A stretch of 64,000 bases of DNA, taken from positions 1-64,000 of the forward strand of contig JACIWW010000003.1 of NCBI GenBank assembly GCA_014360905.1, given 5' to 3'. Both the position numbers and the translations under genes were made by a program. Every line of letters begins with the position of its first letter. Within the stretch, counting starts at the first letter, position 1. The notes under the pieces are model-generated. The model saw nothing but the letters and a program-made list of their open reading frames with translations. It did no database searches and had not been told where the DNA came from. This document shows, in pieces, positions 3,768-19,599 of this stretch. This stretch comes from Chloroflexota bacterium (lineage in GTDB: Bacteria; Chloroflexota; Anaerolineae; UBA2200).

Positions 3768-4454
3768 ATGCGTGTTCTGGTAGTAGATGATGATCCACCC
3801 AGCGTCAAGATGATTTCCTTTCTCTTGCGTGAGGAAGGGTATGAGGTCTTCAGCGCAGATAACGGGACGACCGCTCTAGAATTGGTTAATCGCGAGCAGC
3901 CGGATCTGGTGATCCTGGATGTCATGATGCCACACGTTGATGGCTTCGAAGTGTGCCGGCGGATACGCCAAAAGCTGGATGTTCCCATTATTTTCCTCTC
4001 AGCTAAAGGCGAGACAGCGGATAAGGTGGCTGGGCTGCAGTTAGGAGCAGATGACTACTTAGCCAAGCCCTTTGAGCCAGCAGAGCTGTTAGCTCGGGTG
4101 AGAGCGGTGATGCGTCGAGCGGAGGTTTTTGCGGGCGAAGAAGCGCAGGTACGCTTGACCGTAGGGGATATCACGCTTGAACCGGTGAACAATCGGGTAG
4201 TATTTGCGGATGGCCGAAAGGTAGATCTGACACCGATTGAATTCAGGCTTCTGCACTGTCTGATGCGCAATGCGGGTCGTATCCTGAGTCATGATTTGCT
4301 GTTGAATGCCGTTTGGGGTTATGACTACGAAGGTTATAGCAACCAGATCGCCGTGTATGTACACCGCTTGCGCTTGAAAATCGAGGAGGATCCTGAAAAT
4401 CCTAAATACCTACTCACAGTACGTGGCCTTGGATACAAATTCGAGCGTCCGTGA
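3768..4454 (+). CDS. OmpR/PhoB-family response regulator
   Basis: A 228-residue two-component regulator. The receiver domain (about 1-115) has the acidic pocket D7-D8-D9, the phospho-acceptor D51 in DLVILDVMMP, S78 and K100 (LAKPF). The winged-helix DNA-binding domain (about 130-228) shows LTPIEFRLL, the recognition region NQIAVYVHRLRLKIE and the terminal hairpin TVRGLGYKF. AAGGTG lies 5 bases before the ATG. It heads a unit that ends in a histidine kinase, the likely partner. OmpR/PhoB proteins bind direct repeats about 11 bp apart. Such repeats occur before 15148, 37679 and 55903 in this window, which makes this protein a candidate regulator of the glycan genes (inference). Confidence 0.95.
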   Translation: MRVLVVDDDPPSVKMISFLLREEGYEVFSADNGTTALELVNREQPDLVILDVMMPHVDGFEVCRRIRQKLDVPIIFLSAKGETADKVAGLQLGADDYLAKPFEPAELLARVRAVMRRAEVFAGEEAQVRLTVGDITLEPVNNRVVFADGRKVDLTPIEFRLLHCLMRNAGRILSHDLLLNAVWGYDYEGYSNQIAVYVHRLRLKIEEDPENPKYLLTVRGLGYKFERP

Positions 4455-4591
4455 AGGTTTTGCCATTCGGGTTCACGGCGCAAATCCACGGGTCCGCAGC
4501 GGTATCCAATATACGAGGTATGCTTCCATTTGCAATCTAATACTGTGTTTTTGTGGGGAGCTCTATCAAGTATCGGAAAGGGGAGCGGAGA

Positions 4592-7500
4592 ATGAGGGTT
4601 AGAGCCCTGATAAGTGTAGTTACGTTTGGCATGCTGTTTATCTTTTTATGTGCGGCTACCCAGGTCAGGGGCATGACCATCGAATCAACGCTGATGGGAG
4701 CCAGCCTCCAAAGTTGGTATGATTTTCAACCCAGTGGGTGGGTTACAACCACTTTGGTGACCTGTACGATCGAAGTTTACCACCCGGATGGGTTTATTGA
4801 CGAAGCCGAGTACCAATACCGCACGGGAGATGCTTGGAGCAACTGGGTTGCAGAAAGTCTTCAGATTGTCATATTGGATACCACAAGGCGCCGTTTGACT
4901 GTCTCCAATCTATTTTTCCCTCATTCTGCTACCGAGGATCAAAATCAGATCAGGTTTCGTATCAAGTCCTCACTTGACGAGTGGTTAGAAAGCAACGCCT
5001 ATTCTGTGCGCGTAGATAGAGTTGCTCCTGACTCCACTGTGGCTGTGGCTTCTTGCTATAGCTCTACTATGGAGATTAAGGGTGTGGCCAGCGATTCTGG
5101 CTCTGGAGTACAAGTTGTGGAAATCGCCTTGCAGCGCGCTTTGGACTCTTGGTATTTCAATGGCACCTCCTGGGGGCCAACGCTGAGTTGGATAGCTGCT
5201 TTTGGCACTACGAACTGGTCATTGCCGTTTACCCCAACGGTAGAAACAGTGTACACGGTTACTTCCAGAGCTACGGACAACGCCGGCAATGTGCAAGGGA
5301 TACCGGGAAGTGGCGTTTTCCGTTATGATGCAACTCCACCGCAGTCTGTAGTAACGACTACTGGCTGCTTCAACACTTGGCCAGGGGCCATACAGGGTTT
5401 GGCCAACGACGCATTTTCTGGTGTTGCGTCAGTGCAAATCCGATTGCAAAGGGCCTCGGATCGTTTCTATTACAATGGAACCTCCTGGGGGCCAACTGAG
5501 AGTTGGGTTACGGCTTCTGGAACAGCTGTCTGGTCATTGCCATTTACACCACCTGTGGAAACAGTATACACGGTTACTTCGAAAGCTGTAGATAATTGTG
5601 GTAATTGGCAAAGTGTGTTTATCACGAGTACGTTCAGTTATGATGTCACACCGCCCCAGACAGTGGTAACAACCACCGGCTGCTTCAATAGCTGGCCTGG
5701 AGCCATACAGGGTGTGGCTAGTGATTTGGTCTCCGGAGTTTCTTACGTTCAGGTAAGGCTGCAGCGGGCGTTGGATGGCTTTTATTACGATGGCTTTTCT
5801 TGGACGCCTGTTGCCACCTGGCTCACAGCTACTGGGACAACTGACTGGTCGTTGCCCTTTACGCCAACACTGGAAACAACCTACATGGTTGCTGTGAGGG
5901 CCGCAGATCATTGTGGCAACCTGCAAATCGAGCCTGGCACAGGTGTGTTCACCTATGATGCCACTCCCCCTGAATCTGTGGTTGCCACTGTTGGTTATTT
6001 CAATACGTGGCCCGGAGCAATCGAGGGCATAGCCAGCGATGCTGTGTCCGGGGTTGCACATGTTCGAGTGAAATTGCAGAGGTCATTGGACCATTTCTAT
6101 TATGATGGCTTTTCCTGGGCATCGGCTGAAAAATGGATTACGGCTACTGGAAACATTACCTGGACAGTGCCCTTTACACCAACCGTAGAAGCAGTCTACA
6201 CAGTCACCAGCCGTGCTACAGATTCCTGTGGTAACGTGCAAGATATCCCTGGTATAGGCACGTTTGTGTACGACATCACACCGCCATCATCGCCCTTTAA
6301 CCTTGCTGTTGAACCTTCGGTGTGGACACCAGTGAATTCTTTTACTGTAACATGGGAATGTCTTGCCGACCTTTCAGGAGTTAAGCTCGCGCACTATAAA
6401 TGGAATGCTGCGCCGGTGAACAACGAAGATGAATCGCCAGGGTCACCCGTACCAATCTCAGGCGAGAGAATTCAAAGCATCCAAGGATTGGCCGTGCCGA
6501 CACAGGGTGCCCATCAGCTTTTCATCTGGCTGGAGGACAAGGCGGGCAATGTTAACTTCCAAACCCGCAACGCCACTACAGTAGGAGCATTTAAATGGGA
6601 TGCCGAACCTCCAGCTACAACTATTGTGAACTTGGATGGCAGGCAGGGATGCGAAGGCTGGTATATTTCTGCAGTACAGGTCAACCTCTCCGCTGTGGAT
6701 GTAAATCCAGACCCAGGTACGATCAATGCGACTTCTGGCATCAGTGCAACATTTTGGCGCAAAGATGGAGGCAGCTGGCAGCAAGTGACCGGATCCAACT
6801 TCCAGATAGCGGAGCAAGGTGTTCATACCATCGAGTACTATTCGGTGGATATTGCGGGCAATAGCGAAACACCACGTGAGCTCACTCCTACGCTAAAGAT
6901 TGATACGGTGCCACCTACTACGTACCAACCTATCTATACTGGTACCCTAGGGCGTGAAGGTTGGTACATATCGCCAGTTTCCGTGACTTTGAATGCTGTG
7001 GATGCTACTTCTGGCATATCCATCACCTGCTATCAGGTAGATACGGACACTTTGCAGACGGGAGATTCATTTTGTGTAACCGCTGATGGAGCGCATACTA
7101 TTCGTTATTACTCTGTTGACGTTGCGTGCAATTGGGAGACAGAACAAACTGCCACACTCAAGGTAGATAAAACTTATCCCACTACTGCCTACCAACTGGA
7201 AGGCGTTCAGGGTGACAACGGCTGGTTTCTCGCCGCGCCGGTGACCGTGACCTTAATCGCCAGCGATGCCGTTACGGGTGTACAGGGGGTCTCTGGCGTG
7301 GATAAGGTGCATTACCGCATTGACAGCGGGTCCTGGCAGATCAGGGAGCCGCTAACATCGTTTACCATTACGATCCCGGCAGGGCAGAGCGAGTACATGC
7401 GTACGGTCACGTACTACGCAACGGACCTGGCTGGCAATATAGAACCGATGCGCACGCTGACCATTGGTGTGGATTCCCGCGCACCATTGGCTCTTCCTTA

Positions 7501-9586
7501 CGCCCCATATCCTGTGCCCAGTGGCTGGACCAATATCAACTGCTTCGATATCCGTTGGTTTGCGAATCCTGCTGATTTTTCAGGCATCGGTGGAGCTTAC
7601 TATAGTTTTCATGTGCCGGTTTCACCGACCGATGGGATTCTTGTCCTTGGTGACAATATCATGTCTATCCCGTGTGTGCAGGTGCCAACCCAGCTCGGAG
7701 ATGGGTTGCATAATGTGTATGTTTGGTTGCGGGATAGAGCAGGTAATAGCGATCATCGCACCAGACATGCGGTCACGCTAGCACTGGATCAGACTCCTCC
7801 TCAATTGAGCGCAGTGGTAGCAGGACGCCTGTGTAACGTGGGTGGATGGTACAATTCTCCTATTACTGTCACTTTTGTGGCGACGGATGCACTCTCAGGC
7901 ATGGCTACTGGAGTGATTAGTTATCAGGTAAATGGTGGAGGCTGGGTGCAAGGCACTGCTTATTACGAGTCCAGCGATGGCCGCTATGTGATCGAAAGCA
8001 GGGCCAGGGATGTCGCTGGCAACCATAGCGACATCGTCACCGCAACTGTCCGAATCGATCAGACGGCGCCAGATGCGCCCATGCCTATTTGGGTTGAGCC
8101 AAGCGATTGGTCCAGAGAGAACAATTTTGTGGTTCGTTGGGTGAATCCTTGGGATTTATCTGGAATAGCAGGAGTTTACTATAAACAGGTAAATCCTCCA
8201 ACTTTTTCCTCAGATGGAACTTATGTGGATGGTTTCCATAGCTCACTTGCTATCTCTGCTACTGAGGAGGGGTTGATACCAGTCTATGTATGGCTGGCAG
8301 ATAAGGCCTGCAACAAGGATCATCAGAAACGAGGCATGGTTACACTTAAATACGACCGAACGCCGCCTACAACCACTTTTAGTGTGGAGGGTGTTTCTGG
8401 AGGTGAAGGTTGGTACACCTCAGATGTGCAAATCTCATTGAATTGTACAGACGCTCACTCCGGATGCAAGCAGGATGGTACCTACTATCGGATTGGCGAT
8501 GGGGCATGGCATAATGGCACTTCGTTTGTCATAAGCGCTGAAGGCGTCATTACGTTCTCGTACTATTCTGTGGATATCGCAGGCAATACGGAAGCCATAC
8601 GCACAGGTTCGGTCAAGATTGACCGCACTCCACCCTCATCCTATGCCTATGCTGATCGCTACAGTCCATCTACCTCTTTCACTGTCCGTTGGAATGGCAG
8701 TGATGGATTATCTGGCCTTGCTGCCTTTGACGTACAGTATAAAGAAGGGACGATTGGCACTTGGCAAGATTGGGCCATTTCCTTAGACCCAACGCAGCGT
8801 TCCAAACTGTTTACTGGCGTGCGGGGAAGGACTTATTATTTCCGTACCCGGGCAATGGATAAAGCGGGCAATGTGGAGCCTTATCCTGTTGTTGCCGATA
8901 CCTATGTATCTATAGATCCTTTGCTCAATGGTGATTTCGAGCGCGATATTGCGAGTGAATGGGAGATCTTGTGGATCACTGGTGGCGGTCAGGGTAGCTG
9001 CTGGCCCACACGGGTTTATACACAGTCGTATAGCGGTGGGAATACCTATGCGGTGGTTCTGGGTTGCCGCGATAGAAGGGACGCTCCTTTTGGCGTGTCC
9101 ATGATCTGTCAGACTATCAATGTGCCTACCGTGCAGAACATGCCTGCTCCCATGCTACTTTTCCGTTACCGTATTTTCACGTATGATTTAATACTAGGGC
9201 CAATAACCGGAAAGTTCTTCGATTCCTTCAATATTGCTCTGTGGCGTCCGGGCGATATTTCTCCCACCTACGTTTTTACAGATGGGCACAAGGGTCCGGA
9301 TTATGGCACTTTGCGGGATTTGGGATGGCGTGAGGGAGCAGTGGATCTCAAGCCGTATGCAGGGCAAACACTAAAAGTTTGTCTTGCCAATGTGACTAGA
9401 GAGGATGAGCATCTGAATACTTGGACTTATGTCGACGATGTCCGAGTGGTCAATTTGGAGTATAAGATTTGTTTGCCTGTCATAAAGCGGCTTGTTCCTA
9501 TGGCTGGGTTAGCAGCAGAAGCAACGCTGAGTTCGGTACTCCCTAAAGTACAGGAGGAACTCGAATTGCCACCGCTTAAGCGATAG
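4592..9586 (+). CDS. secreted multi-repeat Ig-like surface protein
   Basis: A 1664-residue exported protein starting with a signal peptide (MRVRALISVVTFGMLFIF...). An in-frame GTG lies at 4553, but AAGGGGAG sits 6 bases before the ATG at 4592. About residues 145-565 hold four Ig-like repeats of 105 residues (PPQSVVTTTGCFNTWPG... to ...DNCGN). About 565-1440 hold further Ig/OmpL47-like repeats, recognisable from TPPTT..., GWY, VTLNAVD, EGVHTIEYYSVD and AGN. About 1443-1617 is a jelly-roll-like domain (NGDFE... to ...YVDDVRV). The tail contains YKICLPVIKR, close to a LPLV-type motif common near the C-termini of Chloroflexota surface proteins. No catalytic signature is seen, so an adhesive, structural or ligand-sensing role is likely. 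It lies between a response regulator and its probable kinase. Confidence 0.85.
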   Translation: MRVRALISVVTFGMLFIFLCAATQVRGMTIESTLMGASLQSWYDFQPSGWVTTTLVTCTIEVYHPDGFIDEAEYQYRTGDAWSNWVAESLQIVILDTTRRRLTVSNLFFPHSATEDQNQIRFRIKSSLDEWLESNAYSVRVDRVAPDSTVAVASCYSSTMEIKGVASDSGSGVQVVEIALQRALDSWYFNGTSWGPTLSWIAAFGTTNWSLPFTPTVETVYTVTSRATDNAGNVQGIPGSGVFRYDATPPQSVVTTTGCFNTWPGAIQGLANDAFSGVASVQIRLQRASDRFYYNGTSWGPTESWVTASGTAVWSLPFTPPVETVYTVTSKAVDNCGNWQSVFITSTFSYDVTPPQTVVTTTGCFNSWPGAIQGVASDLVSGVSYVQVRLQRALDGFYYDGFSWTPVATWLTATGTTDWSLPFTPTLETTYMVAVRAADHCGNLQIEPGTGVFTYDATPPESVVATVGYFNTWPGAIEGIASDAVSGVAHVRVKLQRSLDHFYYDGFSWASAEKWITATGNITWTVPFTPTVEAVYTVTSRATDSCGNVQDIPGIGTFVYDITPPSSPFNLAVEPSVWTPVNSFTVTWECLADLSGVKLAHYKWNAAPVNNEDESPGSPVPISGERIQSIQGLAVPTQGAHQLFIWLEDKAGNVNFQTRNATTVGAFKWDAEPPATTIVNLDGRQGCEGWYISAVQVNLSAVDVNPDPGTINATSGISATFWRKDGGSWQQVTGSNFQIAEQGVHTIEYYSVDIAGNSETPRELTPTLKIDTVPPTTYQPIYTGTLGREGWYISPVSVTLNAVDATSGISITCYQVDTDTLQTGDSFCVTADGAHTIRYYSVDVACNWETEQTATLKVDKTYPTTAYQLEGVQGDNGWFLAAPVTVTLIASDAVTGVQGVSGVDKVHYRIDSGSWQIREPLTSFTITIPAGQSEYMRTVTYYATDLAGNIEPMRTLTIGVDSRAPLALPYAPYPVPSGWTNINCFDIRWFANPADFSGIGGAYYSFHVPVSPTDGILVLGDNIMSIPCVQVPTQLGDGLHNVYVWLRDRAGNSDHRTRHAVTLALDQTPPQLSAVVAGRLCNVGGWYNSPITVTFVATDALSGMATGVISYQVNGGGWVQGTAYYESSDGRYVIESRARDVAGNHSDIVTATVRIDQTAPDAPMPIWVEPSDWSRENNFVVRWVNPWDLSGIAGVYYKQVNPPTFSSDGTYVDGFHSSLAISATEEGLIPVYVWLADKACNKDHQKRGMVTLKYDRTPPTTTFSVEGVSGGEGWYTSDVQISLNCTDAHSGCKQDGTYYRIGDGAWHNGTSFVISAEGVITFSYYSVDIAGNTEAIRTGSVKIDRTPPSSYAYADRYSPSTSFTVRWNGSDGLSGLAAFDVQYKEGTIGTWQDWAISLDPTQRSKLFTGVRGRTYYFRTRAMDKAGNVEPYPVVADTYVSIDPLLNGDFERDIASEWEILWITGGGQGSCWPTRVYTQSYSGGNTYAVVLGCRDRRDAPFGVSMICQTINVPTVQNMPAPMLLFRYRIFTYDLILGPITGKFFDSFNIALWRPGDISPTYVFTDGHKGPDYGTLRDLGWREGAVDLKPYAGQTLKVCLANVTREDEHLNTWTYVDDVRVVNLEYKICLPVIKRLVPMAGLAAEATLSSVLPKVQEELELPPLKR
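5021..6283 (+). repeat. four 315-bp tandem repeats inside the Ig-like protein gene
   Basis: A shared landmark, G-[VLI]-A-[SN]-D, begins at 5081, 5396, 5711 and 6026, exactly 315 bp (105 codons) apart each time. Copies two to four also share GCFN.WPGAI, and all four share W..PFTP..E..Y.V. The repeats have diverged in sequence but kept their length, which suggests older duplication with structural constraint. The first copy is two codons shorter before the landmark. Confidence 0.85.
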
Positions 9587-9610: not shown

Positions 9611-11026
9611 GTGCCTGACGAGATAGAGGACGCAAATGTAGATAGCATCCAGGATTCCGAAGCTGCTGATGCTTTGTATGCGGAAGGCATGGCTCATTAC
9701 CGCAGACGGGAATGGGAAGAAGCCAGGGCCTGTTTTATACGCTTGAAATCCATTGCACCTGGCCGGCGGAATGTTGACGCGCTTTTGAATGAGGTAGATC
9801 TGTTCCTTCAATTGCAGGAAATGCAACCGGAGCGCCGTAGGGCTGTGCCTTTTACAAGTAGAGCGGAAGAAGCGCGTGAAGCGAAGCGTGTTTCACGAAG
9901 AGAGGCAAAACTTCCTCGCGAACGGCGTAGGACCACGTGGTCAATAGTGTTGGTTGTTCTGGCCTCCCTGTTGATTCTTTTCTCAGTGCTGTACGTAACA
10001 GGATGGCTAGATCCACTCATCAATAGTCAACGGCAGGCCCGCGTCCAGAGTCTGGTGAACCAGGGGCGAGCTGCATTGAACGTTGGCGAATATGACCGCG
10101 CTGTAGCTGCTTTTGGCGAGGCACTGGCTCTGGCTCCCAACAACGAAGATGTGCAGACTTGGTATGCCAAAGCACAGAGATTTCAGCAGATGGATTACCT
10201 ATATACACAAGCGGAAGCAGACATGGCTGCTGAGAAGTGGGATAGCGCATTGGAGAAGTTAGAGAAAGTTATAGCGCTTGATCCCACGTTTAAGGATGCT
10301 CGTACTAAGGTTGATTTCATCAAGAGCCAGCAGACTTTGGATGCCCGCTTTGCCGAAGCCCGGCGCTATTTTGAACAGGGCAAATGGAAGGAGGTTATTG
10401 ATATCCTGGAACAATTGCGTGAGACAGCGCCGGCTTTCAAGACGAACGATGTGCAACAAACTCTCTTCTATGCCTATTTTCGGCATGGGGTGGAGCTTTT
10501 AGCTGGGGCAGGTGAGTCTCTGGATCTGATGAGTCAGGCGATTCAAAGTTTTGATCGGGCATTGCTGATCCTACCCAATGACAAGACAGCTCTTACTGAG
10601 AGGAGGCTGGCAGATCTTTATCGCCAAGGTTACCTCTTTTTCAATCAGAAGAATTGGCCGCAAGCGGTCCTTGTCTTGCAACAGATCTACAGTACACGTC
10701 CGAGTTATATGGATGGCCGGGTCACTGCTATGTTGTGCACTTCCTATTTGCGGTTGGGAGATGCCTATCATGAGTCCGGGGATCTGGAACAAGCATTGCT
10801 CCAGTATCGAAACGTACTGGCTATCGATGGCTGTGACCATGTTGAAGCGGCGGTAAAGGAGCGCGAGGTGTACCTGGCTCTTTATCCACCGACTCCAACT
10901 CCAACCAGGACGCGAACACCAACCCGCACACCACAACCCACTCCCACTTTCACTGCTACACCTTTGCCGCCTACGCCACCTCCACCGCGTCCTCCGCCCC
11001 CTACAGAGACACCGATCATCCGGTGA
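9611..11026 (+). CDS. membrane-anchored TPR protein with Pro/Thr-rich tail
   Basis: A 471-residue protein starting at GTG, with GGGGAG 5 bases upstream. Residues about 1-108 are charged, Arg-rich and probably cytoplasmic, with one TPR-like unit (ADALYAEGMAHYRRREWEEA). Residues 111-134 form one transmembrane helix (IVLVVLASLLILFSVLYV). About 140-420 are TPR units, for example NQGRAALNVGEYDRAVAAF and a later one at residues 379-398, which should lie outside the membrane. From 426 the tail is Pro/Thr-rich (PTPTPTRTRTPTRT) and ends PPTETPIIR. TPR arrays mediate protein contacts, so it may hold partner surface proteins. The next gene's product ends almost identically (PPQETPVLR). Confidence 0.88.
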   Translation: MPDEIEDANVDSIQDSEAADALYAEGMAHYRRREWEEARACFIRLKSIAPGRRNVDALLNEVDLFLQLQEMQPERRRAVPFTSRAEEAREAKRVSRREAKLPRERRRTTWSIVLVVLASLLILFSVLYVTGWLDPLINSQRQARVQSLVNQGRAALNVGEYDRAVAAFGEALALAPNNEDVQTWYAKAQRFQQMDYLYTQAEADMAAEKWDSALEKLEKVIALDPTFKDARTKVDFIKSQQTLDARFAEARRYFEQGKWKEVIDILEQLRETAPAFKTNDVQQTLFYAYFRHGVELLAGAGESLDLMSQAIQSFDRALLILPNDKTALTERRLADLYRQGYLFFNQKNWPQAVLVLQQIYSTRPSYMDGRVTAMLCTSYLRLGDAYHESGDLEQALLQYRNVLAIDGCDHVEAAVKEREVYLALYPPTPTPTRTRTPTRTPQPTPTFTATPLPPTPPPPRPPPPTETPIIR

Positions 11027-11048
11027 TTGATGAGGTGTATTAGCCGGA

Positions 11049-12512
11049 TTGGATCAGAAAATGAACAATCGCTCCTTTGTCGTGGAAAGGGAAAGCGCCC
11101 ACAGTTATCTGCACGGTCTTTTGGAAAGCAAAGCAACCCAGATTGTCCTGGCTATCCTATGTTTTCTTTTGCCCGTTTTCTTCCTGCCAGCCGCTTTGCA
11201 TGAGAGTGGAACAGACCTTTGGGTATATGCTGGGCTATCCAAGAGTGCGATTAAACAGGTGTTGCTTCCTCGAGGAATCATTCCTGTGCGGTATGTACTG
11301 CTTGCTGATAAGGGAATATATCGCAGTACGGATAATGGCATCACCTGGACGGCACTGAACGATGGCTTGCCTTCTGGACAATTTACAAATATCAATGTGC
11401 AAGCCCTTGCTGTAGATGCTGACAATCCACTCATTGCATACGCTGGCATAGGCGGCGCTGGCAGTCGAGACAGTTCGCTCAGTGCTGGGTTATACGTATT
11501 GGATGAGAAGGGCGCGACCTGGCTACCTGCAGGTAGGGTGATGGCAGGCCAGGAGGTGCGGCAAATTGCGATCATGACACTGCCAAGTGTGAAAAACAGC
11601 GTGGTTTGCGCTGCAGCGAGCGAGGGCATCTATTGCAATATCGGGGAACAGCAGTCCTGGTTGCGACTTAATCCGCCAGCTATAGAGGTGAACAAGATCT
11701 CGTCTCTCGCTATCCGTCCTGGCAATCCACGCGTGATCTATATAGGGACTGACGGACGTGGCCTGTTTGTCACCAAAGATGGCGGGAATTCCTGGTTGGA
11801 ACAGGCTCAGGGGTTGGACGGCCTTCATATCTATGACATCGCTATCTCACCGATTCAACCTGACTTGCTGTATGTCGCGACAGAAAGCGGCATATACAAA
11901 TCCATAGATGCTGGCTTGACATGGACTAAACTAGCTCTGACGACACAGGGCCGACGGATCAACACAATAGTTCTGTATCCAGGTGATGAGGACGTCTTGT
12001 TTGTGGGCCTACAATATGGTGCGGCTTATTGCACAGTGGATGGCGGCATACGCTGGACTCCCTTGAAAAAGGGGCTAGGCGATGTAACCATTTTGTCTTT
12101 GGCGCTTGATCCCCAGAATCCTTCTATTCTTTGGGCAGGCACAACGGATGGCATTTGGCGCTATGTATTAGGGACGCCTGTGGCTTCGAGGACAACTTCT
12201 GTAGTGGTAAGTGCAACTGCAGTGCCTACGGTTGAGCCTACGCTTACGCCAACAGTGCAGCCTAGTTTTACTCCAACGCCTACCGAAACGCCTATTCCTA
12301 CGGCAACGTTGACACCAACGGCGACCTTTACTGCCAGCCCTACTGCTACGCGTACTAAACAACCCACTCCAACTCGTACTTCAACACCTGTGCCCACTCC
12401 TACCGCAACAGCAGTACCACCAACACCTGTGCCCACTCCTACCGCAACAGCAGTACCATCAACACCTCCGCCTCCACCTTCTCCACCTCAGGAGACTCCG
12501 GTGCTGAGATGA
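11049..12512 (+). CDS. exported beta-propeller (Asp-box/BNR, YCF48-like) protein with Pro/Thr tail
   Basis: About 487 residues. A hydrophobic segment at about 32-51 (IVLAILCFLLPVFFLPAAL) acts as signal or anchor. Residues about 60-375 form a propeller with Asp-box repeats: YRSTDNGITW, FVTKDGGNSW, YKSIDAGLTW and YCTVDGGIRW. Such folds occur in sialidases, sortilin-like receptors and YCF48 assembly factors. No sialidase catalytic set is seen, so binding is more likely than hydrolysis. The tail from about 390 is Pro/Thr-rich and ends SPPQETPVLR. The start is uncertain: TTG at 11049 has GAGGTG 11 bases upstream, and ATG at 11061 gives a protein 4 residues shorter. It is co-oriented between the TPR protein and the kinase. 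Confidence 0.85.
   Translation: MDQKMNNRSFVVERESAHSYLHGLLESKATQIVLAILCFLLPVFFLPAALHESGTDLWVYAGLSKSAIKQVLLPRGIIPVRYVLLADKGIYRSTDNGITWTALNDGLPSGQFTNINVQALAVDADNPLIAYAGIGGAGSRDSSLSAGLYVLDEKGATWLPAGRVMAGQEVRQIAIMTLPSVKNSVVCAAASEGIYCNIGEQQSWLRLNPPAIEVNKISSLAIRPGNPRVIYIGTDGRGLFVTKDGGNSWLEQAQGLDGLHIYDIAISPIQPDLLYVATESGIYKSIDAGLTWTKLALTTQGRRINTIVLYPGDEDVLFVGLQYGAAYCTVDGGIRWTPLKKGLGDVTILSLALDPQNPSILWAGTTDGIWRYVLGTPVASRTTSVVVSATAVPTVEPTLTPTVQPSFTPTPTETPIPTATLTPTATFTASPTATRTKQPTPTRTSTPVPTPTATAVPPTPVPTPTATAVPSTPPPPPSPPQETPVLR
12382..12459 (+). repeat. two 39-bp tandem repeats encoding a Pro/Thr linker unit
   Basis: 12382-12420 and 12421-12459 are identical except for the last base. Each encodes 13 residues of the type TPVPTPTATAVPP. 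Near identity at DNA level points to recent slippage or recombination and to a linker that can vary in length. Confidence 0.9.
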
Positions 12513-12539
12513 CTGTAGAATGAAATCGTGGTGGGCAAG

Positions 12540-14861
12540 ATGTTAGCACATACGGATGATCATGCTGACTATTTGAATACGATATTGCAGAGCGAACGTC
12601 GGGTGGGTTTATCCATCAAGTGGGCATTATTGCTACTTGGTTTGTTCAGTACGCGCTTTCTGGAAAAATATCGCATCTTTACTGGATTGGCTATTGGGGT
12701 GTTGGCCTATGCTCTGTTCAACCTGTATTTTACGTACCAGTTAGTGTTTCGCTTGGACATGGCCAAGTCATGGGGACGCAACTCTTACTTGCTCTCATAT
12801 GGAATGGACATCGCTTTTGCTAGCCTGATCATTTATTACAGTGGTGCTGCTGTCAGCGAACTGTACTTCTTGTATGCATTGTTAGCACTGAAAAGTATCT
12901 TGTATTATCCTGCGTGGCATGAAGCATTGATTTTTCCCTTTGCCTCGGGCCTGTTGTACACGGTGCTTCTGCGCTTTTCGCTCCATACATGGTCTTTCTT
13001 GACCGAGCCTCTTTTCCTTCAGCGCTATGTTTTGCTCTTTGGCAGTGTATTGACCTCGGTCTATCTAGGCTGGTTGAATGAACACAATTACCTATTGCAA
13101 TCGAGTTTACGACGTAGTATAGCCGAACGTACCCAGGAGTTGGACAGTAAAACGCGCTCCATGCAGCAAATGGCTACTAGCCTTGGCAATAGAGTGCTTG
13201 AATTGCGAACCCTTCAGGAAGGAATCAAGGCCATCAATTCCGCGCTGGCTTTGGAGGATGTGCTACGTCTCATTGTGGCTAATGCTTCTCAGGTTCTGGA
13301 AGGAGCACGCTGCTCAGTGGCACTTTTGGATGAGGAACGCAACCAGGTCCTCTCCATGGCAGCATCAGATGGGAAGGTAGGTGTTGGGACTGACACCAGT
13401 TTCGAGTTTGTCAAGAGCCTTGTTCAGTGGATTGTGGAGAATGGCAAGCCGCTGCTCATTGGCGATGTACGGCAGGACGATCGCTTTACAAGCATGACCC
13501 ATCTGCCCATTGTCTCGGTAATCAGTGTGCCGCTCTTTCTGGACGATAAAGCGGTTGGAGCGCTGATTGCCACAAGCGCAGATGCCGATGTGTTTACAAC
13601 CGAGGATTTGAACCTCCTGACTGCCTTCGCAGATCAGGCGGCTGTTGCAGTGAAAAATGCCAGACTGTATGAGCAGCTTGTCGAGGAGCAAAGGCAAACA
13701 GAGCAGATTTATCAACATGTCGAGGAGCGGAGAAACGAACTCGAGGCAATTCTGCGTGGCATTGGCGACGGAGTGATTGTGACAGACCCCGATCTAAATT
13801 TGTTGCTCATGAATCCGGTTGCTACTCGTATCTTTCGAGTCAAAGCGGATGTGTCCAGTAGCGTGTCATTATCAAAACTTATACCGCATCAGGAACTGAC
13901 ATCCCTCTTTCAGGATGCGCTTCATGGTGCTGGAAATGCCATTGTGCGGGAGATCTCTCTGTCACCAGCAGGTGATAGGATAGAGGCTACTTATCAGGCC
14001 CTAGCCTCGCCGATTCTTGGCGCAGATGGTAAGGCACGTGGAGTGGTGACCGTGCTGAGGGATGTCACAAGTCAAAAAGAACTCGAGCGTATGAAATCTA
14101 GTTTCTTGTCGGTAGTATCTCATGAACTGAAAACACCGCTGCATTCGATCAAGGGCTTCGTGGACATTATCTTGATGGGCAAGACTGGCCCGCTTACAGA
14201 CACCCAGGCTGATTTCCTCGCCACGGTGCGCGATCAAACAACTCATTTGCAAAGTCTGATCGATGACTTGCTCGAATTCTCACGCCTCGAGTCAGGACAA
14301 ATTAAATTGCGCCTAAGCGAGGTTTCGTTGTCAGAAGTGACGGCGGCGGTCATTGACAAGTTAAAGCCCCTAGCAGAGCGTGGTCAGATCCAACTAGTCA
14401 ACCGTGTTGGGGCAGAGATCCCGGTCGTCGAAGCAGACTATATGCGCATTGAACAGGTTTTGACCAACCTCATTGACAACGCGATCAAGTTCACTCCTCC
14501 TTCTGGAGTTGTGACCATTGCGGCTCAGGACTTGGGAGGCGAGGTGCAGGTTGCTGTTTCGGATACTGGCATTGGTATTCCAGCAAGTGAACAGGAACGC
14601 ATCTTCGAACGTTTTTATCAAGTGGATAGTGGCTCAGCGCGACATTATCGCGGCACTGGTCTTGGCTTGACGATATGTAAGCATATTGTGGAATACCACC
14701 ATGGCCGGATTTGGGTGGAAAGTGAGGTGGGCAAAGGCAGCACTTTCTACTTCATTTTGCCCAAAAAGATCAGGGCTGAAGAGGGCGAATTGTTGCTCGA
14801 CTTCTCGAGCTTGCCCAGAAAGGAACAGAGACAAAAGCGCTCACGCGAGCACAAAAAGTGA
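12540..14861 (+). CDS. membrane sensor histidine kinase (TM-GAF-PAS-HisKA-HATPase)
   Basis: A 773-residue sensor. The first 190 residues or so contain several hydrophobic segments with very short loops, so any signal is probably sensed in or at the membrane. A linker helix leads to a GAF domain (about 222-377) and a PAS domain (about 396-517, beginning ILRGIGDGVIVTDPDLNLLL). The HisKA helix carries H528 in SHELKTPLH. The ATP-binding domain (about 628-745) has the N box NLIDNAIKF, G1 DTGIGIP, F box IFERFYQ and G2 GTGLGL. There is no receiver domain. GTG codons at 12528 and 12531 are in frame, but the ATG at 12540 has GGTGG at good spacing. Partner: probably the regulator at 3768. Confidence 0.94.
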   Translation: MLAHTDDHADYLNTILQSERRVGLSIKWALLLLGLFSTRFLEKYRIFTGLAIGVLAYALFNLYFTYQLVFRLDMAKSWGRNSYLLSYGMDIAFASLIIYYSGAAVSELYFLYALLALKSILYYPAWHEALIFPFASGLLYTVLLRFSLHTWSFLTEPLFLQRYVLLFGSVLTSVYLGWLNEHNYLLQSSLRRSIAERTQELDSKTRSMQQMATSLGNRVLELRTLQEGIKAINSALALEDVLRLIVANASQVLEGARCSVALLDEERNQVLSMAASDGKVGVGTDTSFEFVKSLVQWIVENGKPLLIGDVRQDDRFTSMTHLPIVSVISVPLFLDDKAVGALIATSADADVFTTEDLNLLTAFADQAAVAVKNARLYEQLVEEQRQTEQIYQHVEERRNELEAILRGIGDGVIVTDPDLNLLLMNPVATRIFRVKADVSSSVSLSKLIPHQELTSLFQDALHGAGNAIVREISLSPAGDRIEATYQALASPILGADGKARGVVTVLRDVTSQKELERMKSSFLSVVSHELKTPLHSIKGFVDIILMGKTGPLTDTQADFLATVRDQTTHLQSLIDDLLEFSRLESGQIKLRLSEVSLSEVTAAVIDKLKPLAERGQIQLVNRVGAEIPVVEADYMRIEQVLTNLIDNAIKFTPPSGVVTIAAQDLGGEVQVAVSDTGIGIPASEQERIFERFYQVDSGSARHYRGTGLGLTICKHIVEYHHGRIWVESEVGKGSTFYFILPKKIRAEEGELLLDFSSLPRKEQRQKRSREHKK

Positions 14862-14953: not shown

Positions 14954-15052
14954 GGCTTTTGGCCGGAAAATGAATATAGTTGAAAAAATTTACATTTTCT
15001 TCATTTGAAATGGCGTACTACATGAGCGGATTGTAACCCCTGTCGCGCTTGT

Positions 15053-15086
15053 TTTTCATCCTCTTTTCATCTCGAAAGGCTAGAAT
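15053..15086 (+). promoter_or_regulatory. PhoB-type promoter (site A) before the HTH/radical SAM/GT-C operon
   Basis: TTTTCAT at 15053-15059 and TTTTCAT at 15064-15070 are 11 bp apart. Ten bases later comes TAGAAT (15081-15086), a good -10 with no separate -35. This is the layout of promoters activated by PhoB/OmpR proteins, where the activator sites replace the -35. The same spacing occurs at 37419-37452 and 55850-55883. A small hairpin, CGGAG-GTGAA-CTCCG (15096-15110), lies at the start of the transcript. Confidence 0.65.
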
Positions 15087-15147
15087 GTTGTTAGCCGGAG
15101 GTGAACTCCGACATCCTTTTAGAGATTTGGATGCGAGGGGGAAGAGT

Positions 15148-15594
15148 ATGGCGCTCTATGTGCGCAAGCTAACTGAGGCAGAGGAAGAACAACTCAAGCG
15201 TTGGTTAGCAGGCGGCGATCCAGCGATGAGACATCGTGCTAGGGTCATTCTTCTTTCGAGCCAGGGCTATCGGGTACCAGAGATAGGGCCACTGGTTAAG
15301 TCTCATCCAGCCAATCTACGCAAATGGATTCATCGTTTCAATGAACGGGGATGTGAGGGGTTGCGGACAGTGCGCTCTGGTGGCCCAAGGTTGCGCTTCT
15401 CTCCAGAACAAAGGCAGGAAATTGTTCGCCTGGCTCGAGCAAAGCCAAGGGATTTGGGGTTGAATTTTAGCCGCTGGACCCTGCATAAATTGGCCCAGCA
15501 AGCTGTGAAACACGGCATTGTAGACCGAATCAGCCACGAATGTGTACGTCAGATACTGAGAGAGGCGCAATGCCAGTATAAAGGGTATAAGTAG
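15148..15594 (+). CDS. stand-alone helix-turn-helix protein related to IS630 transposase N-termini
   Basis: 148 residues. The start at 15148 is set by GAGGGGGAAG just upstream; an in-frame extension back to 15049 would overlap the promoter. Residues about 15-75 form one HTH (RARVILLSSQGYRVPEIGPL then NLRKWIHRFNERG). About 80-145 form a second winged-HTH-like unit (LNFSRWTLHKLAQQAV... to CVRQILREA). Both match the DNA-binding half of IS630/Tc1-type transposases. The DDE catalytic domain is missing: the frame stops and a radical SAM gene begins 8 bases later. No inverted repeats flank it. It is either a truncated transposase or a domesticated DNA-binding protein. As first gene behind a regulated promoter, a regulatory role is plausible but unproven. 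Confidence 0.75.
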   Translation: MALYVRKLTEAEEEQLKRWLAGGDPAMRHRARVILLSSQGYRVPEIGPLVKSHPANLRKWIHRFNERGCEGLRTVRSGGPRLRFSPEQRQEIVRLARAKPRDLGLNFSRWTLHKLAQQAVKHGIVDRISHECVRQILREAQCQYKGYK

Positions 15595-15601
15595 ATAGAT
15601 C

Positions 15602-17068
15602 ATGAGGATTGCTTTAATCTCACCAAAATGGAATAAAAAGGCTAATGATTATCCGCCGCTGGGTTTGGCTTATCTAGCTGCTGTTCTGGAGCGAGATGGC
15701 CATCAGGTAAGAATTTTTGATTTTGCTTTGGATCCTTATACGGCTCTTGAGGATGATGTAAGACCTGTCTGCGCTTTTGATCCGCATCTCATAGGCATCA
15801 CGGCGATGACCAGCGTGTATCACAGCGCTCTAGAGATTGCTACGTTGCTGAAAGCCTATCTGGGTAGGCCTATTGTGATTGGGGGGCCTCATGCTACCGT
15901 TTATCCAGAGCGGATATTGGCAGAGTCACCTGTGATCGACTATGTAGTTCGTGGTGAGGGCGAAGAGACGATAAGAGAGTTGGTACATGTCCTGTACGAT
16001 AGTGGTGATCTCAGCACAATCAAGGGCCTCACTTACCGGCTCCGGGGCGAAATCCTTTCGAATCCAGATCGGCCGCTTATTACCGATCTAGACAACTTGC
16101 CTTTCCCTGCGCGCCACTTATTCGATTTGAAACGGTATGGTTTGTGTACTCCTGACGGGCAACCTATGTTGTCGATCTTATCCAGCCGAGGTTGTCCTTA
16201 TAATTGCAGTTATTGTTTCAAGGGAATTGTTGGGCGCACTTATCGTCAACGCAGCCCAGAAAATATCATTGCCGAACTGAAGCAGGTGATTGACCAATAT
16301 GGCATCCGCAATTTCTACTTCATTGATGATCTGTTCACCATTGACCAGCGACGTTTAGAGGCTATTACAGAGCAACTTATCAACGAGAAATTGGATATTC
16401 GCTGGCAATGTTTGGGGCGTGTAGACCGTGTAAATGTTGAGATTTTACGCAAGATGTACGCAGCTGGCTGTCGCCGTATACACTTTGGGATCGAATCCGG
16501 TAACGAAGAGGTTCTACAGCGTATTGGCAAGGGTATTAAGTTGGAGCAAGTGCGACAAGCAGTGCGCTGGGCACAGGAGGCTGGGATTCAAGTCAAGGGA
16601 TACTTTATGCTAGGGCTTCCTGGCGACACGGAAGAGACCATGCAACAAACTGTAGATTTGGCAGTTGCGCTTAACCTGGATGAAGCAATGTTCAGTCTCA
16701 CTACGCCTTTCCCCGGCACACGCCTATGGGACGAGTTAGTCAAGAAGAAACCAGAAACAGAGTATAACCAGGATTTCACTCGGGCTTATTATTACACTGA
16801 TCCAGACGAAGAGCTAGTCCCATTTCTGAATGTGTCTGAGGTTTCGGACACCGTTCTCAGCCAATGGATGCGCAAAGCCCAGCGCGCCTTAGCAGAAAGT
16901 AAGTCAAAGTATCTGTATAAACAAGCATTTGGGCCGCGATTGGGCTCCATTCTGTGGCGGATTTCACGTTTTGAGCCTTTGCGAGTGCTTGCCCGCTACC
17001 TGTTGCGCTTGGGAGCGTTTAAACGCTTTGCTAGTCTCCGTATACGGAGGGTAAAGACATGGTCTTGA
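15602..17068 (+). CDS. B12-binding-domain radical SAM protein
   Basis: 488 residues. About 1-140 form a cobalamin-binding-type Rossmann domain (MRIALISPKWN, PPLGLAYLAAVLE, VIGGPHATVYPE). From about 190 comes a radical SAM domain with the cluster cysteines C198, C202 and C205 in SSRGCPYNCSYC. HFGIESGNEEVL and FMLGLPGDTEE are typical of this family. The usual DxHxxG cobalamin motif is not evident, so cofactor use is uncertain. Such enzymes methylate or rearrange unactivated carbons; the substrate may be a sugar or a lipid carrier. The next gene overlaps by 10 bases, so the two radical SAM proteins are probably co-translated. Confidence 0.88.
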   Translation: MRIALISPKWNKKANDYPPLGLAYLAAVLERDGHQVRIFDFALDPYTALEDDVRPVCAFDPHLIGITAMTSVYHSALEIATLLKAYLGRPIVIGGPHATVYPERILAESPVIDYVVRGEGEETIRELVHVLYDSGDLSTIKGLTYRLRGEILSNPDRPLITDLDNLPFPARHLFDLKRYGLCTPDGQPMLSILSSRGCPYNCSYCFKGIVGRTYRQRSPENIIAELKQVIDQYGIRNFYFIDDLFTIDQRRLEAITEQLINEKLDIRWQCLGRVDRVNVEILRKMYAAGCRRIHFGIESGNEEVLQRIGKGIKLEQVRQAVRWAQEAGIQVKGYFMLGLPGDTEETMQQTVDLAVALNLDEAMFSLTTPFPGTRLWDELVKKKPETEYNQDFTRAYYYTDPDEELVPFLNVSEVSDTVLSQWMRKAQRALAESKSKYLYKQAFGPRLGSILWRISRFEPLRVLARYLLRLGAFKRFASLRIRRVKTWS

Positions 17069-18060
17069 CCAAGATAAAGCATCGCGTGCAGCGTTATCGA
17101 CGCCGTGCTTCCAATCTTGCAAAATGGCTTTCTTACATCAGCGGCTGCACCCGCTTGTGGACTTATCCCGATCGCATGTATCTGGAATCCACCAATGTGT
17201 GCAATCTGAGGTGTGTGATGTGTCCAACAGGTCTAGGCCTACTCACGCGACAAAAGGGGTATATGGACTATGACCTTTTCACTCAGATCGTTGACGAGAT
17301 GGCACCTCATGTGCAGACAACTACCTTACACATCTGGGGCGAGCCTCTTTTGCATCCTCGAATCTACGACATGATTGCGTATTGCCGTAGCCACGGTCTC
17401 CATAGCGAAATCTCTACAAATGCGACACTGCTGACCGAAGAGAGCAGCCACAAGATACTAGATGCAGGGCTAGGTGCTATTTATCTCTGTCTTGATGGTT
17501 CGACGGCCGAGACTTACGAGCGTGTGCGGCGCAAGGCCGATTTCGAGCAAACTCGTGAAAATATTCTGCGCTTTGCTGAGATGAAAAGCCAGCGTGGTCA
17601 AGGGCCTCGTGTCAGTGTGCAGATTATTCACATCAAACCGACTGCTGCAGAAATTGATGAGTTCAAACAGATTTGGCACATTCCTGGGGTGGATCGTGTG
17701 CATATCAAAGCTTTTGACTCCTGGGGTGACCAGGTCCAGCAAATCAGTGAATTGCGCGCTGACGATGACGAGATCGTTGTGCCTGGAAAACGCTACCATT
17801 GCCCGAATCTGTGGTACCATGTGCATATCTATTGGGATGGGACACTGGTTTGCTGCGATCGCGATTATAATGCGCTTTATCCCCTTGGCAACGTTCGTGA
17901 CGGTGTGATGAAAGCCTGGAATGGTCCCCGAATGGTAGAACTGCGACGCAAACATCTGGAAGGCAATTTGGAAGACGTGCCTTCGTGCAGCAAATGCGTC
18001 GAATGGAGTTGGTGGCGACCTACACCTTTCTCATCTCATGGCAATGCCCCTCAGCGCTAA
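17059..18060 (+). CDS. radical SAM protein with SPASM-type C-terminal cluster region
   Basis: 333 residues. Cluster cysteines C48, C52 and C55 lie in NVCNLRCVMC. The core has LHIWGEPLLHP and TNATLLTEES. The C-terminal region has a Cys-rich pattern (YHCPNLW, LVCCDRDYN, SCSKCVEWSWW) that fits a SPASM domain with extra Fe-S ligands, as in enzymes acting on peptides, amino sugars or lipids. GGAGGG precedes the ATG, which lies inside the end of the preceding gene. The N-terminal 30 residues are basic and may contact membrane or RNA. The substrate is unknown; context suggests modification of a glycan or its lipid carrier. Confidence 0.88.
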   Translation: MVLTKIKHRVQRYRRRASNLAKWLSYISGCTRLWTYPDRMYLESTNVCNLRCVMCPTGLGLLTRQKGYMDYDLFTQIVDEMAPHVQTTTLHIWGEPLLHPRIYDMIAYCRSHGLHSEISTNATLLTEESSHKILDAGLGAIYLCLDGSTAETYERVRRKADFEQTRENILRFAEMKSQRGQGPRVSVQIIHIKPTAAEIDEFKQIWHIPGVDRVHIKAFDSWGDQVQQISELRADDDEIVVPGKRYHCPNLWYHVHIYWDGTLVCCDRDYNALYPLGNVRDGVMKAWNGPRMVELRRKHLEGNLEDVPSCSKCVEWSWWRPTPFSSHGNAPQR

Positions 18061-18072
18061 GAGGACGGGCAC

Positions 18073-19599
18073 ATGGAGGAATGTTGGACAGAAGTTGCAC
18101 AGCTACCCGTCCATACCAAGGTTGGTCTGTTTGTATTGGTTGTGCTGGTTGCTTTTCTCTGGCGTTTTGCCGGGCTGGGCAAAGAGAGCATCTGGCTCGA
18201 TGAAGCGACCAGCTTGATTATTGCCCGCATGGACTTGCGCTCAGAGGTCGCCTGGGCCGCTGCAGATATTCATCCCCCACTCTATTATTTCGCTTTGCAT
18301 TTCTGGCTTCGTGCAGGGGAGACAGAGTTTTCCATTCGTGCACTGTCTGCAGTTCTAGGTGTGATCGCAGTTGCGATCCTGTATGCGCTGGGTCACGAGT
18401 TGTTTGGTCCACGTGCTGGATTGCTTGCTGCGCTCTTATTGGCTCTGTCACCGCTGCATATCTGGTGTTCACAGGAAGCGCGTATGTATGCCATGGTAGC
18501 CACAATGAGCCTGTGGTCAAGTTATCTCTTGCTTCTGGCTCTAAAGAAGGGGCAAACACGCTATTGGCTAGGCTATGTTCTTGTCTCTGCTGTAGCAGTC
18601 TACACGCATTATTTCATGCTCTTTGTTTTATTATCCCATAACTTATTCGCTCTCTATTGGCTGTGGCAAAACAAGAGTGCAAGGGGCATCTGGTTCAGAT
18701 GGCTGATGGCGGAGCTAGCTATTTTCCTGTTGTTTTTGCCCTGGTTGCCTATCTTCTATCGCCAGGCGAGCATTCGCGGTGTAGGTTGGGAGGATAGGTA
18801 CCTTAGGAGGCCTTCTATCTATGCCTTGTTGAGCACTTGGATCTATTTCAATATTGGCCTGGATAGCCGGCTTTACCCCTTGATCTTGCGCCGACTGGCT
18901 TATCTGCTGTTTGGCATTCCTATCGTGATGGCCATAGTGGCACCATTCTTGGAGCGATCAGAGGTGAATGCAGAAGTTGGGATTATTCGTGCACGCCGTG
19001 AAGGCTTGATGTTTGGCCTCCTATATACCGTCATGCCCTTGCTGACCATTTGGCTTTTGTCTCAGGTTACACCTATATATGCTATACGCTATCTGTTGCC
19101 ATTCTTGCCACCCTATTATATGATTGTGGCTCATGGCATCCATATCCTGGGCCGGAATTGGCTGCGGTTTGCTCTAGTTTTGTGCCTAGTGTTGATCCTA
19201 CTGGTGGGCAATTGGAATGCCTTGCGCATCGAACAAAGGGATGACTGGCGGGGGATTAGTGCTTACGTCTTGGCGCAAGCCCATCCAGGAGATGTGGTGC
19301 TTTGCTCACCACGTTGGAACGTCAAACCTTTTGATTATTATGCTCGTGGACAGGTAGCAATCAACATGGACCTTCCCATTCCTGTCACGATGCAGGCGGC
19401 GGAAGAGGTAGTAGCAGACATTGCTCAGCGCTACACACGCGTATGGCTGATCTGGCAACGTGGACATTATAGTGATCCAAATGGCATTGTGAAACAACTT
19501 CTTGATAGCCGATTTCAACTGATAGAAGCCCGCGAGTTTCGAGGCATGATGGATTTGATGCTGTACGATCTGAAAGCAGCACGAGCAGAGGGATCATGA
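18073..19599 (+). CDS. GT-C (PMT_2/GT39-type) membrane glycosyltransferase
   Basis: 508 residues with about ten hydrophobic segments. The catalytic acid is expected in the first outer loop, IWLDEATSLIIA (about residues 42-53). HPPLYYFALHFW and SPLHIWCSQEARMY are conserved family landmarks. Enzymes of this type move a sugar from polyprenyl phosphate to an acceptor on the outer membrane face. The C-terminal soluble part contains DWRGISAYV and is probably extracytoplasmic. The stop overlaps the next gene's start as ATGA. The next product is a diverged paralog sharing the PPLYY and SQEARMY motifs. Confidence 0.9.
   Translation: MEECWTEVAQLPVHTKVGLFVLVVLVAFLWRFAGLGKESIWLDEATSLIIARMDLRSEVAWAAADIHPPLYYFALHFWLRAGETEFSIRALSAVLGVIAVAILYALGHELFGPRAGLLAALLLALSPLHIWCSQEARMYAMVATMSLWSSYLLLLALKKGQTRYWLGYVLVSAVAVYTHYFMLFVLLSHNLFALYWLWQNKSARGIWFRWLMAELAIFLLFLPWLPIFYRQASIRGVGWEDRYLRRPSIYALLSTWIYFNIGLDSRLYPLILRRLAYLLFGIPIVMAIVAPFLERSEVNAEVGIIRARREGLMFGLLYTVMPLLTIWLLSQVTPIYAIRYLLPFLPPYYMIVAHGIHILGRNWLRFALVLCLVLILLVGNWNALRIEQRDDWRGISAYVLAQAHPGDVVLCSPRWNVKPFDYYARGQVAINMDLPIPVTMQAAEEVVADIAQRYTRVWLIWQRGHYSDPNGIVKQLLDSRFQLIEAREFRGMMDLMLYDLKAARAEGS

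Follow-up and report, generated by a model that had tools for sequence, protein, structure and literature searches.

C-terminal elements common to unrelated exported proteins are familiar from the LPXTG/sortase and PEP-CTERM/exosortase systems and from the type IX secretion system (T9SS), whose cargo carries a conserved C-terminal domain (CTD) that is removed by PorU. In anchoring of the Braun lipoprotein type, the side-chain amine of a C-terminal Lys is linked to peptidoglycan. A basic end residue also serves as a signal in the C-end rule (CendR) of neuropilin-1, where a free C-terminal Arg or Lys is needed and added residues or amidation abolish activity (PMC3753659). More generally, the last residue of bacterial proteins is shifted towards basic residues, 1.8-fold for Arg and 2.3-fold for Lys (PMC7246954). 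Here we describe a five-gene operon, found in part of the Anaerolineae, that encodes a response regulator, an immunoglobulin-like (Ig-like) protein, a TPR protein, a propeller protein and a histidine kinase, and in which the three middle proteins end in a nearly fixed Arg. It lies within positions 1 to 64,000 of contig JACIWW010000003.1 (the window, 64,000 nt) from the Chloroflexota bacterium assembly GCA_014360905.1, which is 2.83 Mb in size and 96% complete. A literature search covering titles and abstract openings found no published description of these tails.

Relatives of the operon were gathered through 62 distinct TPR-like open reading frames (ORFs), of which 51 scoring at least 280 bits were retained after removal of duplicates. 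Paralogs account for some of the 11 that were dropped, which also include L239, a member by synteny that ends DTG; the partial L018, with the end PPPR; L098, whose tail is TPAP and for which no operon was seen; and L093, which runs off its contig. Among closed ORFs of the 51 operons, ORFs running off contigs being excluded from all end counts, Arg is the last residue of 48 of 49 Ig-like proteins, 34 of 37 TPR proteins and 22 of 27 downstream ORFs; the downstream set was taken as the longest downstream ORF, and at least one of its members, L214, is a frame artefact, RPPR being the end of the propeller match on that contig (L021). Pooled, 104 of 113 ends are Arg and none is Lys. The result is similar when counted by group (24 groups at 60% TPR identity), with Arg in 22/23 Ig-like, 22/24 TPR and 16/20 downstream groups with data, and in clusters of neighbour proteins from 78 sources, with Arg in 53/58 Ig-like proteins, 31/36 TPR proteins and, for two propeller clusters, 13/16 and 11/12. 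The kinase has no conserved Arg end (4 of 29 by neighbour clustering, 3 of 15 in the operon set), and in the regulator cluster Asp is the commonest last residue (14/37) and Arg is not the rule. Of the neighbour families that lent themselves to clustering, these three alone have a conserved terminal Arg. The background came from 15 genomes, as 40 stretches of 20 kb each that do not overlap the operon; they lie on contigs to which earlier matches had pointed and are not a random draw. Here Arg ended 31 of 318 and 43 of 311 ORFs and Lys 16 and 18, baselines that include some false genes, as the caller simply takes the longest ORF. Basic ends in these sampled genes comprised 34 Lys and 74 Arg, so that Lys makes up about one third, and of 64 ORFs with a single N-terminal membrane helix eight ended in Arg. 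At E ≤ 1e-60 the TPR profile matches 88 genomes in a sample of 396 from the class, a count that includes paralogs encoded elsewhere than in the operon, and three genomes, all Anaerolineae, in a phylum sample of 400 in which 377 genomes are of unlisted class.

The residues before the Arg are far less constant. Ortholog tails mostly no longer read ETPIIR yet still end in Arg (TPPR, RPPR, TPYR, TPER, PPTR, PPRR, LPPR). The TPR family has Pro at position −3 in 30 of 37 proteins, inside a Pro-rich stretch. The Ig-like protein has no Pro/Thr linker at its end (P 0.13 and T 0.05 over positions −2 to −41), yet it is Arg-ended in the window and almost everywhere else; its commonest residue at −2 occurs in at most 14 of 49 proteins, and none exceeds 33% at positions −2 to −15. 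The codons CGA, CGC, CGT, CGG, AGA and AGG and the stops TGA, TAG and TAA are all used at Arg ends, and this speaks against a signal in the nucleotides, for example a ribosome-binding site; a cause in the DNA itself, be it the Shine-Dalgarno sequence of the next gene or a start/stop overlap, was rejected on the same grounds. The terminal Arg is conserved at the level of the amino acid, not of DNA.

Although diverged between lineages, the tails resemble each other within a genome. We compared TPR/propeller pairs in which both proteins end in Arg (20 pairs, 18 after removal of the near-duplicates L023 and L238) against 5,000 shuffles, which were not corrected for relatedness. Tails from one genome match better at −5 to −2 than tails from different genomes (z 3.7; p 2e-4, the lowest value that 5,000 shuffles can give), and likewise at −9 to −6 (p 0.003, 18 genomes); the five blocks from −10 to −29 are null (p 0.23 to 0.77). 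TPR and Ig-like tails likewise match at −5 to −2 (p 0.004, 17 pairs), the propeller/Ig-like match is weak (p 0.04 at −5 to −2), and nothing clear emerged further inward in the Ig-like comparisons (best TPR/Ig-like p 0.07 at −17 to −14). The TPR/propeller signal is unchanged without the window (p 2e-4) and persists in a variant from which four of the five f32 genomes are dropped (p 0.0005 to 0.0024, 14 pairs). Shared genome composition would be expected to touch the inner linkers too, and the lack of a match there counts against it. Over the last six residues, terminal Arg included, 44 of 57 matches are made by different codons, so recent gene conversion is unlikely.

In the window itself, the TPR ORF ends ...PPPPTETPIIR and the propeller ORF ...SPPQETPVLR, as the first-pass annotation had read them. 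That annotation took the likeness to exceed chance, and the conserved Arg in orthologs together with the co-variation of the TPR and propeller tails bears this out; in relatives, too, the Arg tails sit on proteins that look exported. Its consensus P-x-E-T-P-[IV]-[IL]-R, however, does not hold up as a conserved motif, since a genome of the same genus has it in the propeller only, with a TPR protein ending ATPIIHD. Nor is it a proteome-wide tag: even E-T-P-[IV]-x-[RS]-stop, searched as a degenerate DNA pattern, has just these two matches in the 2.83 Mb assembly (reversed control, 0), and we rejected the exact ETP[IV][IL]R in that role. A third member of the set had been overlooked, the upstream Ig-like gene at 4553-9586, which ends ELPPLKR. 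The tail resemblance is partly common linker vocabulary, PPTETP also occurring inside another linker of the same genome (L270); what exceeds chance is the chain end itself, with its kept terminal Arg and about nine last residues matching within genomes. We also surveyed Pro/Thr linkers of this genome at 100 of its 121 PTPTP-coding sites (30 as loci and 70 via 40 stretches). These gave 53 distinct Pro/Thr-rich ORFs, real or not, of which 17 closed within 40 residues after the linker. Besides the TPR gene, none had a linker ending directly in Arg in this survey, in which the propeller ORF was cut; the Arg-ended ORFs L141, L246, L251 and L276 have other sequence between linker and end.

The features of the operon are collected in the table below. 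The gene order recurs in relatives, where gaps reflect contig ends or the choice of another frame by the ORF caller, and the propeller and TPR orthologs are adjacent in related genomes with either protein as query. In the propeller, Sortilin-Vps10 scores above the Pfam cut-off and BNR below it. Judged by hydropathy and charge, the TPR and propeller proteins each have one membrane helix on the N-terminal side of the linker with the basic side predicted inside, so that linkers and tails should face outward; export of all three tail proteins is likewise a prediction from sequence. The Ig-like protein starts with a signal-like helix and closes with a jelly-roll domain followed by an unstructured tail. 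An AlphaFold model of its last 290 residues predicts two beta domains, the second being the jelly roll, and a tail with confidence (pLDDT) of about 40-60. An internal motif, YKICLPVIKR, lies at 9461-9490 in the same protein and is followed by a 31-residue tail.

Table. Coordinates in the window of the operon genes and of their C-terminal elements.
Feature	Position	Strand	Evidence
Response regulator, OmpR-type, first operon gene	3768..4454	+	Pfam Response_reg, Trans_reg_C; recurrent gene order
Ig-like protein (Big), Ig-like/OmpL47-type repeats, 1,677 residues	4553..9586	+	Pfam Big_13/Big_3_2, NCBIfam barrel_OmpL47
Ig-like protein tail, ELPPLKR	9563..9583	+	Sequence; Arg column nearly invariant in the alignment
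TPR protein: N-terminal TPR, one membrane helix, TPR domain, Pro/Thr linker, tail	9611..11026	+	Pfam TPR
TPR protein, Pro/Thr-rich linker	10886..11005	+	Sequence
TPR protein tail, ETPIIR (GAG ACA CCG ATC ATC CGG)	11006..11023	+	Sequence
Propeller protein (PROP), sortilin/BNR-like: N-terminal membrane helix, Pro/Thr linker, tail	11049..12512	+	Pfam Sortilin-Vps10
Propeller protein, Pro/Thr-rich linker	12210..12491	+	Sequence
Propeller protein tail, ETPVLR (GAG ACT CCG GTG CTG AGA)	12492..12509	+	Sequence
Histidine kinase: six-helix membrane domain, GAF, PAS, HisKA, HATPase	12528..14861	+	Pfam; model of residues 1-205

Downstream of the kinase, at 15049-18060, follow genes for a helix-turn-helix (HTH, transposase-like) protein, a B12-binding radical SAM protein and a radical SAM/SPASM protein. 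This order is kept in L063 and L065 and partly in L064, L067, L235 and L236, which suggests a second conserved module; as modifiers of the tails the radical SAM genes were rejected, being linked to the operon in some, mostly nearer, relatives only. A PMT_2-type mannosyltransferase-like protein (18073-19599) then opens a run of similar-sized ORFs, of which the first was scanned. Further on, a very large protein (56923-62589) carries CBM96 and prolyl-oligopeptidase/esterase-type hydrolase domains, Disaggr_repeat and a C-terminal dockerin-like domain. The membrane domain of the kinase (12528-13142) compares with that of mammalian adenylyl cyclase (8buz) at a Foldseek TM of 0.66 by query, probability 0.89 and E 1.3, a likeness of the model that is only a hint.

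The near-fixed Arg, the absence of Lys, the three unrelated folds and the matching of neighbours together point to recognition of the chain end by a single reader. We therefore propose, at slightly better than even confidence, that one partner recognises, in trans, the free C-terminal Arg together with the few residues before it. This recognition element would consist of the terminal Arg and about eight residues of lineage-specific context on all three exported proteins, presented flexibly by the Pro/Thr linker in two of them and by a disordered stretch in the third. A partner that reads three tails would allow the proteins to dock, to assemble or to be displayed jointly on the cell surface, and the two-component pair of the operon would control this step. 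Because the five genes travel together and other neighbours do not, our guess is that the reader is itself encoded in the operon and may be either the kinase, through its six-helix membrane domain, or the TPR domain. One loop of this kinase domain has a mostly acidic position, which we regard as a lead, not as evidence. We are more doubtful of a stricter version, a bacterial C-end code in which an operon-specific receptor reads the Arg plus a few co-evolving residues, such that the lineage "spelling" would let surface parts know each other or the kinase, and not those of relatives.

Several observations weigh against recognition by a single reader. No reader for the tails was identified. When tails are swapped between genome pairs of at least 45% TPR identity (n = 18), the own pairing scores better in only 7 cases, worse in 2 and equal in 9, as against 36, 6 and 16 of 58 intermediate pairs and 60, 6 and 11 of 77 distant ones; the matching may thus be largely old, and long-standing history of the clades may account for part of the signal. 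The Arg also has exceptions. The TPR protein of the same-genus genome (L063) ends PIIHD, although its propeller and Ig-like proteins are Arg-ended; the TPR proteins of the f30 genomes (L092, L099/L239) end DTG, again beside Arg-ended propellers; single proteins deviate in L094 (Ig-like, SRAP), L078 (Ig-like, PRH) and L086 (TPR, SRDT); and three propellers (L236, L067 and L088) have lost linker and tail. In L067, where the propeller lacks a linker, the two remaining tails each run one residue past the Arg (Ig-like ...PPYRRW, TPR ...PPIRT), a joint departure that speaks for the single reader. Outside the operon, TPR paralogs in clusters that from the look of their neighbours we take to be tad-pilus-like end in VP (two), WIK (two), WVK (one) and TSP (one). 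A shared end, [DE]-[WY]-D-P-x-W-[IV]-K, was seen on such tad-pilus-like paralogs at L284:7836-10475, L285:7206-9053 and L286:7435-9318, with similar ends in L055, L056, L057 and L060.

An unlikely alternative is a general effect in which Lys and Arg ends favour, and Thr and Pro ends disfavour, termination and stability, the Arg merely capping a Pro/Thr linker. Arg and Lys are indeed enriched and Thr depleted at the last position across bacteria, and C-terminal Pro can stall termination (PMC7246954); moreover, Pro/Thr linkers end two of the three families. Yet it is the Ig-like proteins, without a Pro/Thr end, that show the strongest Arg conservation, and a bias of this kind should enrich Lys at least as much as Arg and treat functional classes alike, whereas Lys never occurs at these ends and neither the kinase nor the Asp-led regulator follows the rule. 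In sampled genes of such genomes Pro is 1.7 to 2.0 times as frequent at the end as in bulk, two short Pro/Thr-ended ORFs of the same genome (L241 and L257, gene status not shown) end in Pro, and a cap leaves the matching at −2 to −9 unexplained. The general basic preference explains the direction of the effect, and not its strength, the absence of Lys, the limit to three families or the matching. Chance combined with shared linker vocabulary, or recent gene conversion between adjoining linkers, would draw on the PPTETP found in other linkers of the genome and on the ability of adjoining genes to swap repeats. We consider it highly improbable, given an Arg frequency of 92% against 10-14% in the background, matching that stops about 10 residues from the C-terminus though the linkers continue, and the excess of matched residues with different codons.

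It is also rather improbable that a transpeptidase, carboxypeptidase or arginine-modifying enzyme acts on the Arg tail, either by coupling it covalently to cell wall or glycan or by processing it. The exact position at the chain end, the specificity for Arg and the flexible tails would suit such an enzyme, and 57 of 60 genomes, with all the operon carriers of that set, have YkuD-type L,D-transpeptidases, so that an enzyme of this kind may act on the tails. These are present, however, with and without the operon, and Lys was found at none of the ends despite them. For sortase, LPXTG or a hydrophobic C-terminal helix would be expected, as would the enzyme in every tail-bearing genome: among the 104 Arg-ended ORFs neither LPxTG in the last 60 residues nor a hydrophobic 18-mer in the last 50 was found, and sortase (PF04203), matched in 53 of 60 relatives, the window's own genome included, had no match in the Arg-tailed drafts G013, G022 and G058 (the last 73% complete). 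Exosortase would have to be encoded in the same genome as its substrates; none was matched in G000-G007, the own genome and its nearest relatives, and the 18 of 60 genomes with a match comprise carriers (for example G020, G022 and G033) and non-carriers alike. The co-occurring transpeptidase-like gene for which the first-pass annotation proposed to check is not supported, no enzyme among sortase, exosortase and YkuD tracking the tails (carboxypeptidases and arginine-modifying enzymes were not searched for); of the sorting, anchoring or modification signal that it suggested, what is supported is the shared, non-chance end, the motif as given being local. A last alternative, which we think very improbable, is that short Arg-ended peptides are freed from the tails and detected by the six-helix kinase, as a pheromone-like or wall-integrity readout. 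The recurrent linkage of the tail genes to the kinase/regulator pair would agree with this, as would the kinase N-terminus (residues 1-205), modelled as a six-helix domain with short loops, one of which has a mostly acidic position (D/E in 79% of 29) on what is probably the outer side. No protease is found among the five operon genes, however, nothing found supports cleavage of the tails, and the membrane domain matched no solved structure at E ≤ 0.001.

Recognition of the tails by one partner, if correct, would provide a compact, testable model of how co-expressed surface proteins find each other. Single-residue C-terminal signals are easily missed because linkers tend to be seen as filler. 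In the present case, one position to which domain searches pay no attention is nearly fixed across many families of the class and on three folds, while the rest of the tail has diverged. Terminal-residue conservation across orthologs would then be a simple genome screen that could reveal more such systems.

Compared with the genome-wide preference for Lys and Arg, the operon tails share position and direction, and differ in near-fixation, in the use of Arg only and in the restriction to three families. They resemble the sortase, exosortase and T9SS signals in placing a common C-terminal element on unrelated exported proteins; unlike the signals of the first two, they have neither LPxTG nor a C-terminal hydrophobic helix, the enzymes do not track them, and they were seen in one operon. 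Exported-looking proteins of relatives also carry ends that we name the [YFW]LP[LIV][LIV] type, often with K/R and mostly after a Pro/Thr linker (YLPVILR, YLPLLMR, WLPVLLK and FLPIIFTY; L101:8301-10250, L110:2-2725, L114:5010-6461, L121:11666-17933 and L011). The Pro/Thr linker and short hydrophobic-basic end are common to both, but the last residue of these proteins varies (R, K, W, Y, Q, P), and in the Ig-like protein the [YFW]LP[LIV] motif is internal, usually some 20-40 residues before the Arg end; the TPR and propeller tails of the window lack it. The Ig-like jelly roll is predicted to resemble MAM, CBM4, ephrin-receptor and gingipain-adhesin folds; no neuropilin b1-type domain occurs among its 50 listed structural matches, which thus lend no support to a neuropilin-like receptor domain in this protein, a candidate that we rejected. 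CendR, in which a receptor pocket holds the Arg side chain and carboxylate, accepts Lys and has the pattern R/KxxR/K, with a second basic residue three positions upstream, whereas Lys is absent from the operon tails and only 9 of the 104 Arg-ended ORFs have the upstream basic residue. In its working, CendR is nonetheless the nearest analogue, by analogy only: there a free basic residue at the exact chain end, with a short upstream context, is the signal, as it may be here.

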